Shown piece after piece: positions 43,789-53,529 of a stretch of DNA of 64,000 bases. The stretch covers positions 372,001 through 436,000 of the forward strand of contig NZ_SGXD01000003.1 in NCBI RefSeq assembly GCF_004216915.1, written 5' to 3'. Under the pieces are notes generated by a model that did not search any database, was not told the origin of the DNA, and saw nothing but the letters and a program-made list of their open reading frames with translations. This stretch comes from Motilibacter rhizosphaerae. GTDB taxonomy: Bacteria > Actinomycetota > Actinomycetes > Motilibacterales > Motilibacteraceae. Numbering within the stretch: the stretch's first letter is position 1; every line of letters starts with the position of its first letter. Position numbers and translations under genes: made by a program.

Positions 43789-45600
43789 CTACTCCCGGCG
43801 GGGCCCGCGGTCGCGGCGCACGTTGACCGGGCGGCCCTTCACGGTCGAGCCGCGCAGCGCGTCGACCACGCGGTCCGCCGCGCTCTCCGGCACCTCGACG
43901 AGCGAGAACTTGTCGGCGATCTCGATCGCGCCGATCTGCCGGCCGGGCAGCCCCGCCTCACCGGCGATGGCGCCGACGAGGTCCTGCGGGCGGACGCCCG
44001 CCATGCGGCCGAGCGAGATCCACAGCCGCGTGGTCGGCCCGCCGGTGCGGCCGGCGAAGCGGTCACGGCTCGCGCCGCTCCGACCGCCCGGACCGGCACC
44101 GCCGGTGCGGTCGTCGCGCACGGGGCGCAGCGTCGCGTCGGGGATCTCCTCCTCGTCGCTCGTCGGGCCGCCCGCCTCGTGGGCGAGCTTGACGGCGGCG
44201 AGCGCGATCTCCATCAGGCCGTACTCGGCGGCGAGGGTCTCCACGACCACGCGGAAGCCGTCGAGGTCGTCCTCGACCAGCGCCTCCTCGACCGCGGCCC
44301 GGGTCATCTCGAGCCGGCGGGCGCGCATGTCGGCGACCGTCGGGACCTTCTCCACCGGGATCGTCGCGCGGGTGACGCGCTCGATCGTCTTCAGCATGCG
44401 GTGCTCGCGCGGCTCGGCGAGGGTGATCGCCACGCCGGCGCGGCCGGCGCGGCCCACGCGGCCGATGCGGTGGACGTACGCCTCGGGCGCGGACGGCACG
44501 TCGTAGTTGACGACGTGGGTCAGCGTGTCGATGTCGAGCCCGCGCGCGGCGACGTCGGTGGCGATGAGCAGCTCCGCGGTGCCGGCGCGCAGCCGCCCGA
44601 CGACGCGGTCGCGCTGCTCCTGCGAGAGCCCGCCGTGCAGCGCCTCCGCGCGGTAGCCGCGCCCGTTGAGCGACTCGGTCAGCGTGTCGACCTCGTCGCG
44701 GGTGCGGCAGAACACGATCGCCGCCTGGGGTGCCTCGACGTCGAGCAGCCGGCCGAGGGCGGCGGGCTTCGCGGCGCGGGGGACGACGTACGCGACCTGG
44801 CGGACCAGCGGCGACTCCCCGCCCGTCGGCCGCTCGCGCTCGATCTGGATGCGCCGCGGGGAGCGCTGGTGCTTGCGGGCGATCGCCTCGACGCGCACCG
44901 GCATCGTCGCGGAGAACAGCACCGTCTGCCGGCCCTCGGGCGCGGCCTCGAGCAGCGCCTCGATGTCCTCGGCGAAGCCCATGTCGAGCATCTCGTCGGC
45001 CTCGTCGAGGACGACGACGTGCACCTCGGAGAGGTCGAGCGTGCCGCGGGAGAGGTGGTCGAGCGCACGGCCCGGGGTGGCGACGACGACGTCGACGCCG
45101 CGGTCGAGCGCGCGCAGCTGGTGGCCGATCGGCTGGCCGCCGTAGATCGGCAGCACCCGCATGCCGAGGTCCTTGCCGTACTTGTGCGTGGCCTCGGAGA
45201 CCTGGACGGCGAGCTCGCGCGTCGGGACGAGGACGAGCGCGCCCGGGCGACGGCCGTCGCGCGGGCCCGCGGCGAGCAGGTGCAGGACGGGCAGGGCGAA
45301 CGCCGCGGTCTTGCCCGTGCCGGTCGCGGCCTGGCCGAGCAGGTCGGCGCCCTCGAGCAGCGGCGGGATCGCCTCGCGCTGGATCGGGGTGGGCTCCTCG
45401 TAGCCGAGCGCCGAGAGCGCGGTGAGCAGCTCGGGACGCAGGCCGAGGTCGGAGAAGCCGCCGTGCTCGTCGTCCGGCTGCTCCTGCACCGGCTGCTCGG
45501 CCGGCGCGGTCGTCTCGTGCGTCTCGACCGGTGCGCCGGTCGTCATGTCGGTCGTGTCGGTCGTCGTGTCGGTCGTCGTCGTCTCGGTCGGCTCGCTCAT
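43789..45600 (-). CDS. deaD: DEAD-box RNA helicase with DbpA-type RNA-binding tail
   Basis: An ATP-dependent RNA helicase of 603 residues for rRNA maturation and cold or stress RNA remodelling. A Thr/Glu-rich N-terminus (residues 1-48) precedes the helicase core: Q motif GYEEPTPIQREAIP, Walker A AATGTGKTAAF, PTRELAVQ, VLDEADEML, SAT and HRIGRVGRAGRAG. After a Gly/Arg linker the C-terminal DbpA/CsdA RNA-binding fold reads PQDLVGAIAGEAGLPGRQIG..FSLVEVPE. The ATG has a GAGGAA ribosome site and is divergent from the glycosidase gene. Confidence 0.95.
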   Translation of the reverse strand: MSEPTETTTTDTTTDTTDMTTGAPVETHETTAPAEQPVQEQPDDEHGGFSDLGLRPELLTALSALGYEEPTPIQREAIPPLLEGADLLGQAATGTGKTAAFALPVLHLLAAGPRDGRRPGALVLVPTRELAVQVSEATHKYGKDLGMRVLPIYGGQPIGHQLRALDRGVDVVVATPGRALDHLSRGTLDLSEVHVVVLDEADEMLDMGFAEDIEALLEAAPEGRQTVLFSATMPVRVEAIARKHQRSPRRIQIERERPTGGESPLVRQVAYVVPRAAKPAALGRLLDVEAPQAAIVFCRTRDEVDTLTESLNGRGYRAEALHGGLSQEQRDRVVGRLRAGTAELLIATDVAARGLDIDTLTHVVNYDVPSAPEAYVHRIGRVGRAGRAGVAITLAEPREHRMLKTIERVTRATIPVEKVPTVADMRARRLEMTRAAVEEALVEDDLDGFRVVVETLAAEYGLMEIALAAVKLAHEAGGPTSDEEEIPDATLRPVRDDRTGGAGPGGRSGASRDRFAGRTGGPTTRLWISLGRMAGVRPQDLVGAIAGEAGLPGRQIGAIEIADKFSLVEVPESAADRVVDALRGSTVKGRPVNVRRDRGPRRE

Positions 45601-48342: not shown

Positions 48343-48594
48343 ATGACGAACACTCTCAGCGCCCGGCCCGACGTCGAGAGCATGGGCGAGGACCTCGCCC
48401 CCCTGGCTGTCGCGGACCGCTGCGACCAGTGCGGTGCGCAGGCCTTCGTGCGCGCCCGGCTCGAGAGCGGCGAGCTGCTCTTCTGCGGCCACCACGGCCG
48501 TGAGGCGATGGCGCGCCTGATGGAGCTCGGCGCGGCCGTCCGCGACGACACGGCGACGATCAACGCCAAGCCCTCGGTCTCCGCGACGATCTGA
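48343..48594 (+). CDS. DUF7455 small metal-binding-type protein, second copy
   Basis: An 83-residue paralogue of the protein at 39561-39809. The core [32 protein letters not shown] carries the same C-x2-C and C-x-H-H pattern, and the ends ([18 protein letters not shown]) align. An acidic N-terminus of about 25 residues precedes it. The ATG has a GGAG ribosome site. Function unknown; a terminator hairpin follows at 48610-48650, so it is a single-gene unit. Confidence 0.82.
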
Positions 48595-48609
48595 CGGCGC
48601 GCAGCCGCC

Positions 48610-48650
48610 ACGACGGCGGTCGTCCTCCTCCGGGAGGCGGCCGCCGTCGT
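48610..48650 (+). terminator. Hairpin terminator after the DUF7455 gene
   Basis: Arms ACGACGGCGG and CCGCCGTCGT pair perfectly; the loop contains a second, smaller hairpin (CCTCC/GGAGG). It begins 16 bases past the stop codon. Confidence 0.65.
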
Positions 48651-48785
48651 CGTCCCTGCCCCGTCGTGGCGCTGGTACGGCGCGCGGGTTGGCCCTCCGC
48701 GCCGCCCGTGCGTCATCCTGGGATGCCCGCGAGACGGTCGGCGGGGCCCGGCGACGTGCGCCGGGGAGGCGGAGGGAAGCGGACG

Positions 48786-49799
48786 ATGCTCGGCACGGTG
48801 CAGTGGTTCAAGGCGGACAAGGGCTTCGGCTTCCTCACCCCGGAGGACGGCGGCGACGACGTGTTCGTCCACGTCTCGGCGTTCCACGAGGGGCTGGGGA
48901 CGCTGCTCGAGGGCCAGCGCGTGGAGTTCGACCTCGTCGAGGGCGAGCGCGGCCCCCAGGCGGCCGACGTGCGCGCGGTCGAGCCGGAGCCGGCCGGCCC
49001 GTACGAGCCGCGGGAGGGGGCGGTCACTGGCACCGTCACCTGGTACGACCCGGACAAGGGCTTCGGCTTCCTCTCGCCCGACGACGAGGGCGCCGACGTG
49101 TTCGTGCACTCCTCGGCCCTCGCCCCGGGCGCGCTGCCCGAGGGCGGCGACCGGGTGGAGTACTTCCTCGGCGAGGGCCCCCGCGGCCCGCAGGCCGAGC
49201 AGGTGCAGGTGCTCCCCGAGGAGCCCGGATCACGCCTCGTCATCAGCGGCACCGTCCACTGGTTCGACGAGGAGAAGGGCTTCGGGTTCATCACGCCCGA
49301 CGACGTCTTCGTCCACTTCACCCAGATCAGCGGTGCCACCGGCTACCGCACGCTGCGCGAGGGGCAGAAGGTCGAGTTCTCGATCGCGCCCGGCGAGCGC
49401 GGGCTGCAGGCGGAGAAGGTGCGCGTGACCGGCGCGGCACCCGCTCCGCCCCGTGACGACCGGCACCGTGACGACCGGCGGGGTGGCGGCGACCGCCCGC
49501 GCGGCCGGGACGGCGACCGGCGAGGCGGGCGCGACAGCGGCCCGCGCGAGCACGCCCCGCGCAGCGGCGGCCGCAGCGGCGGGGCCGGCTCCGGTGGCAA
49601 CGGGACCGTCCAGTGGTTCAAGGCGGACAAGGGCTTCGGCTTCATCACCCCGGACGGTGGGGGCGACGACGTCTTCGTGCACTTCTCGGAGATCGCCGAG
49701 GAGGGGAAGTTCCGCAGCCTGCACGACGGGCAGCGGGTCGCCTTCGAGGTCGTCCAGACGGACAAGGGCCCGCACGCGCGCTCGGTCCGTCCCGTCTGA
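48786..49799 (+). CDS. Protein with four cold-shock domains and an Arg/Gly-rich linker
   Basis: A 337-residue protein holding four cold-shock domains, where most bacterial Csp proteins have one of about 67 residues. CSD1 spans residues 1-65 (KGFGFL 12-17, DVFVH 25-29), CSD2 81-143 (KGFGFL 91-96, DVFVH 104-108) and CSD3 153-215 (KGFGFI 164-169, DVFVHF 173-178). CSD3 has only three residues (PDD) between its RNP motifs, a shortened loop. A linker at 216-271 is rich in Arg, Asp and Gly ([21 protein letters not shown]). CSD4 spans 272-337 (KGFGFI 282-287, DVFVHF 295-300). Binding to single-stranded RNA or DNA with high avidity is inferred. No frameshift or join is seen. The ATG lies seven bases after GGGAAG. 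Confidence 0.92.
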
Positions 49800-53325: not shown

Positions 53326-53529
53326 ATGCCTCAGGGCACCGTGAAGTGGTTCAACGACGAGAAGGGCTTCGGCTTCATCGCGCAGGACGGTGGCGGCCAG
53401 GACCTGTTCGTCCACCACACCAGCATCGAGGCGACCGGCTTCCGCAGCCTCGCCGAGGACCAGCGCGTGGAGTTCGAGATCACGCAGGGCCAGCGCGGCC
53501 CGCAGGCCTCGCAGGTCCGCGTCATCTGA
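53326..53529 (+). CDS. cspA: Cold-shock protein, single domain
   Basis: A classic 67-residue cold-shock protein that binds single-stranded RNA and DNA. RNP1 is KGFGFIAQD (about 13-21) and RNP2 LFVHHTSIE (about 27-35). It starts [14 protein letters not shown] like other actinobacterial Csp proteins. CAGGAG lies five bases before the ATG. A strong promoter and long leader precede it, and hairpins follow, so it is a single-gene unit. CSD4 of the protein at 48786-49799 resembles it closely. Confidence 0.97.

Follow-up and report, generated by a model that had tools for sequence, protein, structure and literature searches.

Bacterial cold-shock proteins (Csps) are usually single domains. A 64,000-nucleotide stretch of the Motilibacter rhizosphaerae genome, hereafter the window, contains a gene that raises the question of whether a bacterial protein with four cold-shock domains (CSDs) is genuine, how widely such proteins occur and what they might do. 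The gene (48786..49799, + strand, ATG start, TGA stop) encodes 337 residues. An earlier note on this DNA had claimed four complete CSDs in one frame and proposed a Pfam domain search, which bore the claim out: PF00313 matched the protein at 303.5 bits in four stretches (curated cut-off 27), and the RNP1 and RNP2 motifs (KGFGF and DVFVH) were present in all four domains, placing the protein in this family. Scored singly at the genome level, D4 reached 92.6, D1 88, D3 78 and D2 62.1 bits against the same cut-off. Within the limits set by our own domain model, the + strand encodes CSD 1 (residues 1–67; 48786..48986), a 12-residue linker (48987..49022), CSD 2 (residues 80–143; 49023..49214), a 9-residue linker (49215..49241), CSD 3 (residues 153–215; 49242..49430), a 55-residue linker of Arg, Asp and Gly that is predicted to be disordered (residues 216–270; 49431..49595) and CSD 4 (residues 271–337; 49596..49796), which ends the protein. 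The protein is acidic overall, with a net charge of −18. The window genome has four further single-CSD genes, one of them at window 53326-53529, 3.5 kb downstream. Three other models also exceeded their cut-offs, namely PF08206 (67.3 bits; cut-off 24), PF22707 (43; 27) and the NCBIfam model retron_eff_Se72 (153.4; 82); their best stretches shown fall on the CSDs, and links to RNase II/R, TOTE or retrons were rejected, the matches being judged cross-hits within the fold.

An alternative in-frame GTG at 48666 would lengthen the protein by 40 residues. We prefer 48786 because a start codon, picked by eye in the homologues, is kept at this position or one residue earlier in all seven of them (ATG in four, GTG in three), and because the sequences ahead of the start have no visible likeness among the four homologues shown with theirs. 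An assembly duplication, which would have undone the finding, was checked at the DNA level and in a second genome of the genus (G001), and was ruled out. Over 101 nt, DNA copies 2–4 share 74%, 61% and 85% identity with copy 1, so the four repeat copies are not recent duplicates. G001 encodes a four-CSD protein that is 63% identical to the window protein over its full length, and its gene lies in partly matching surroundings, beside the same DEAD-box helicase (PF00270), glycosyl-hydrolase-like gene (PF11790) and DUF7455 gene (PF24254), whose order is kept. A mobile origin was likewise rejected: only 8 of 50,697 phage records matched at 1e-12, each across one domain (18–20% of the query), and the two matches at 1e-20 among 72,556 plasmid records were both two-CSD proteins.

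The window protein proved to be one member of a family, which we term type A. The type was defined from these same proteins as having at least three CSDs, the next-to-last of which carries a shortened loop, and all six members, the window protein included, share this signature. Every one of the five genomes of the order that we examined encodes a type A protein; four of them reached 1e-24 in the order search, and the fifth, G003, was recovered with our own domain model. The number of CSDs is four in G000 and G001, both of the window's genus, and three in G002, G003 and G004. CSD 2 of the window protein has no aligned counterpart in these three orthologues, and in G002 and G004 the linkers from the first domain to the short-loop domain are 65 and 69 residues long. 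The sixth member, again with four CSDs, belongs to G026, a genome from a different family of the class, and lies on an 11,527-base contig.

A second family of four-CSD proteins, type B, has no shortened loop and was found in 6 of 393 genomes of the class (G004, G025, G177, G247, G248 and G312). In G004 (Motilibacter deserti) it is the second multi-CSD gene (L048 5172-6104; the further type B loci are L050 and L071–L074). The other five proteins are 68–77% identical to the G004 query, have four CSDs each and are spread across families of the class. To our knowledge, type B has no published name. The same survey matched four type A genomes (G000, G001, G003 and G026), which brings the total to 10 of 393, and 6 of 118 genomes in another survey of the class had multi-CSD matches; these prevalences are lower bounds, since the candidates scored per genome were few and long linkers break matches, G002 going unmatched in both surveys. 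Across 396 genomes of the phylum, a D1–D3 query matched at 1e-25 in the window's own genome only, and a 60-genome search gave matches in six genomes but missed G025; judged by length, its matches in G027 and G033 and one of those in G026 were single CSDs. The protein surveys thus covered the phylum, class and order of the window genome, with at most 19, 5 and 7 candidates scored per genome in the 118-, 393- and 396-genome surveys. The layout that the earlier note had singled out is therefore real and is not a one-off, with two actinobacterial families of three- to four-CSD proteins found; it is uncommon rather than unique, a form that has been little described of a kind of protein that is itself very common.

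Type B resembles the window protein in its four CSDs, in its occurrence in the same class, in its length (310–322 residues) and in the absence of Lys7 (CspB numbering) from all 24 of its domains. It differs from type A in that none of these 24 domains has the short loop, its linkers are less charged, and each domain position forms its own starred clade in the domain tree, with ultrafast bootstrap values of 97–100 for the four clades. The tree was built from 59 of 77 domains over 67 columns, with 18 of the 28 single-CSD proteins left out, and 25 of its 56 inner branches are open. The type A positions form no clean clades, and the window domains fall outside the four starred type B clades (B_d1 to B_d4), so that the window protein does not belong to type B. 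Its D2 sits on a long branch and associates loosely with B_d3 and B_d4 inside a larger starred cluster of 14 rows, and D1 of G026 was placed beside D1 of type B (84/88). In D4 of type B, Trp8 is replaced by Arg in all six proteins. A shared origin of types A and B is possible on these sequences.

The shortened loop is the signature of type A. In the window protein, the loop between RNP1 and RNP2 of CSD 3 (49296..49304, + strand) reads Pro-Asp-Asp and leads directly into VFVH; in 67 of the 77 CSDs compared, the loop is four residues longer. Four more CSDs lack one residue, and the six that lack four are all from type A and always occupy the next-to-last position (6/6); the short loop is absent from the other 71, which comprise 15 other type A, 24 type B, 28 single and 4 Azospirillum domains. 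A scan of 84,980 species genomes for the Pro-Asp-Asp loop pattern, which was not exhaustive, listed two records, both type A members and one of them from Motilibacter deserti; the pattern is blind to G003, which has Val-Asp-Asp, and G001 and G002 were not among the records listed. When the loop columns were removed from the alignment, the short-loop domains of G000, G001, G002 and G004 still formed one starred clade (97/80), that of G026 had no clear placement, and that of G003, on a long branch, stood beside D4 of type B (86/88). The short loop is thus retained throughout the order. Loop residues set the target specificity of CspD of Escherichia coli, as described in PMC11648934, and LIN28 is described as having a seven-residue insertion in its strand 2–3 loop (PMC7825780), the same loop that is shortened in type A D3. 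The trimmed loop had been taken as a sign that the domains have diverged in role: the loop is real and the domains do differ, but it is a conserved feature that marks a single domain, and that domain retains all seven of its contact aromatics in the window protein.

These aromatics were scored at seven base-stacking, ligand-contact positions known from CspB, whose numbering is used here. In the window protein, D3 and D4 have all seven, and D1 and D2 have five each: CspB F30 and F38 are replaced by Val and Leu in D1, and D2 has Ser at F30 and a gap at F38, a column within a gap-rich region of the alignment. D2 alone is reduced in G001 (5/7), every domain of G002 and G004 has all seven, and in G003 and G026 the lowest count (4/7, with Trp8 replaced by Arg) is in the short-loop domain itself. 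The predicted split of roles between domains is thus not constant across type A. All seven aromatics were present in 27 of the 28 single-CSD proteins, a non-random set made up of the best matches to the window protein in other genomes (24) and the window genome's own (4). Lys7 was found in all 28 single-CSD proteins and in all four Azospirillum domains, and in none of the 45 domains of types A and B, 10 of which have Arg there. With Lys7 missing from all 45, a single domain of either family may bind more weakly or differently. All 45 domains shown retain a [KR]G[FY]GF motif and a second motif of the type D/E-[VIL]-[FY]-[VAM]-H.

The genomic neighbourhood was compared across the two families. 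A DEAD-box helicase carrying a DbpA-type RNA-binding domain and a DeaD dimerisation domain (43789-45600, − strand) lies within 4 kb of the four-CSD gene and also near it in G001, and the downstream single-CSD gene (+ strand) lies within 4 kb on the other side. Just upstream is the gene for the small DUF7455 protein (PF24254, 78.4 bits; 48343-48594, + strand), its stop followed by an imperfect inverted repeat (48601-48659); the corresponding region of G001 contains two stretches that resemble DUF7455 (L043 8271-8008 and 11657-11854). A GCS2-family gene (PF04107) is found within about 4 kb of the type A gene in G002 and G004, as in the window, and a glyoxalase-like gene is common to L047 (by clustering also L044) and L074. 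Aldo/keto reductase genes (PF00248; L048 3807-5093, +, and L049 2891-3859, −; 60.7% identical over 295 positions) lie upstream of type B on the same strand in G004 and downstream of type A on the opposite strand in G026; the family is common and the places differ, and their presence is probably coincidence. No operon partner was implied by the compared neighbourhoods of the type A and B genes, and the six type B loci, two of them short (4.7 and 7.0 kb), had only the CSD gene and overlapping frames in common. The search for promoter and terminator consensus sites returned none (shuffles averaged 0.0 and 0.3), and the upstream DNA has no visible conservation in four genomes. Neither neighbours conserved beyond the family nor a promoter consensus gave a clue to the timing of action.

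Taken together, we think it fairly probable that the window protein acts as a chaperone that binds single-stranded RNA multivalently, in the manner of Unr or ribosomal protein S1 but as a member of neither family. CSDs are described as binding single strands with little sequence preference, the bases stacking on aromatic residues (PMC7825780). As a stand-alone Csp-type RNA chaperone, the protein would bind single-stranded nucleic acid through its four OB-fold CSDs. D1, D2 and D3 would sit close together on their 12- and 9-residue linkers, and D4 would be tethered by the 55-residue disordered Arg/Asp-rich spacer. With all of their base-stacking aromatics retained, D3 and D4 would be the main RNA grips, with D1 and D2 making weaker contacts. 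One long unstructured RNA, or two RNAs, could in this way be held with avidity and kept melted, by analogy with S1 and its S1 domains and with Unr and its CSDs. The sequence itself establishes the four domains, the family, the conservation of the short loop and the composition of the linker. High-avidity RNA binding, which the earlier note had suggested, can fairly be inferred, and the chaperone role is likewise a prediction.

An overgrown Csp, in which duplicated domains have been kept without any gain from the chain while D1 and D2 decay and copy number drifts, is unlikely in our estimation. The variation in copy number (three CSDs in three orthologues, four in the window genus pair and in G026), the loss of two contact aromatics from each of D1 and D2, the lack of clean clades among type A positions and the fact that no neighbour or regulator indicates a special role would all be expected from such drift. 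However, at least three domains are kept in all five genomes of the order, the short-loop domain holds the next-to-last place in every member, both motifs are retained in 45 domains, and type B keeps four positions that each form one starred clade.

The predicted structure bears on a second alternative. An AlphaFold2 model from six sequences gave four five-stranded barrels with no fixed arrangement, like beads on a string, which suits the preferred reading (mean pLDDT 77.4, pTM 0.33), and pLDDT fell below 50 at residues 219–237 and 239–268 of the linker, residue 238 excepted, and at 184–187 in D3. The three best PDB matches in Foldseek were multi-CSD fragments of Unr (7zhh, 7zhr and 6y6e; query TM 0.24–0.26), followed by single Csps, many at target TM 0.85–0.95. 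On the predicted model, these matches show a chain-of-CSDs plan in common with Unr rather than common descent of the layout. Unr is described as having five RNA-binding and four non-binding CSDs (PMC7383231), and D1 and D2 could similarly be spacing scaffolds, with a preference for RNA shape arising from a rigid D1-D2-D3 block. The short linkers of just 12 and 9 residues, the fewer contact aromatics in D1 and D2, the Foldseek matches and the reported behaviour of the pseudo-CSDs of Unr (PMC7383231) speak for such a block. We nevertheless consider it quite improbable: both RNP motifs are retained in D1 and D2, the long linkers of G002 and G004 indicate that a rigid block is not conserved, and the pTM is low. 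Unr alternates binding and non-binding CSDs, and the presence of both motifs in all four window domains would set the protein apart from that arrangement.

The sequences between the domains evolve differently from the domains. Between the window gene and its G001 counterpart, the fraction of sites that differ at codon positions 1, 2 and 3 is 0.18, 0.21 and 0.38 within the domains (273 codons) and 0.43, 0.46 and 0.43 outside them (61 codons), where residues differ at 0.61 of the 61 compared positions. By this measure, the domains are constrained at the protein level and the linkers are without constraint on sequence. The 55-residue linker contains 14 Arg and 15 Gly together with 8 Asp and a single Glu but lacks Lys, which gives a charged fraction of 0.42, and its counterpart in G001 has the same length, Arg count and charge fraction. 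Among the other five type A proteins, four have a strongly charged linker here (0.42–0.55), G003 being the exception (34 residues, 0.21), and the type B linkers before D4 range from 0.12 to 0.34. A charge fraction of 0.42 was reached in 1 of 2361 real 55-residue windows from four other window genes, in 14 of 20,000 draws from the residues of those genes and in 16 of 20,000 translations of random sequence with the window's GC content of 75%. The linker had been compared with an RG-rich tail; it is indeed charged and predicted to be disordered, but it is internal and Arg-Asp-rich, and its composition makes it a polyampholyte spacer, not an RG tail. The speculation that, under stress, the protein phase-separates with RNA through this linker and its multiple CSDs draws on the rarity of such charge among real windows and on its retention in G001 despite residue divergence, yet is very unlikely given the few aromatics in the linker, the short and weakly charged linker of G003, the lower range in type B and the occasional yield of such charge from GC-rich DNA alone.

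A multivalent single-stranded-RNA chaperone thus remains our preferred reading of the window protein. It is a tentative and somewhat doubtful extension of it that Actinobacteria evolved, independently of animal Unr, two or more families of three- to four-CSD proteins with separate domain roles, which would give bacteria a multivalent regulator of mRNA that resembles Unr and differs from the single-domain Csps. The marks cited for separate roles are the loss of Lys7 everywhere, the short-loop domain fixed before the last and a disordered tether that keeps its charge.

Comparison with known systems places the protein among these relatives. Each window domain is a Csp-type CSD like that of the single-domain CspA, CspB and CspE (PF00313), from which the window protein differs in having four domains per chain, a disordered linker, a short D3 loop and no Lys7 in any domain. 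The NCBIfam CspE model NF049933 gave 310 bits (cut-off 120), but this is the sum of four stretches, and the single Csp at 53326-53529 reached only 109.9. Among the best matches in the open-access literature, a body in which subscription journals are mostly missing, titles and the beginnings of abstracts mentioned no bacterial protein with at least three CSDs. The published multi-CSD bacterial Csps that we found are two-domain proteins of Alphaproteobacteria, including CspC and CspD of Caulobacter as described in PMC4830024 and PMC4551563. Those Csps also carry duplicated CSDs on a bacterial chain, but they have two domains where the window protein has four, and it is not one of them. Two large Azospirillum plasmids (L068 and L069) encode two-CSD proteins, one with a Gly-rich interdomain linker; unlike the window protein, the Azospirillum proteins have Lys7 in all four domains and the short loop in none.

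Beyond the Csps, ribosomal protein S1 is a string of OB-fold domains that holds single-stranded RNA. It is built from S1 domains, whereas the window protein is built from CSDs, and membership of the S1 family was rejected: PF00575 scored 22.6 bits (cut-off 22), with no stretch passing alone and the best on CSD 4. The earlier note had also likened the protein to UNR/CSDE1 and to Y-box proteins. Y-box proteins have a single CSD and, after it, a long charged tail, whereas the window protein has four CSDs and an internal charged stretch. With Unr/CSDE1 it shares several CSDs per chain, and the likeness of layout holds in the Foldseek matches, but no membership of either group was found: the CSDE1 model PF23456 gave 21.8 bits (cut-off 27) with no passing stretch, and among seven relatives scanned only G026 exceeded the cut-off, at 27.4, again with no passing stretch. 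How the number and spacing of CSDs relate to RNA affinity and specificity is a question studied in animal Unr, and the three- to four-CSD families, with their fixed short-loop domain and charge-keeping linker, would allow it to be put in a bacterium.
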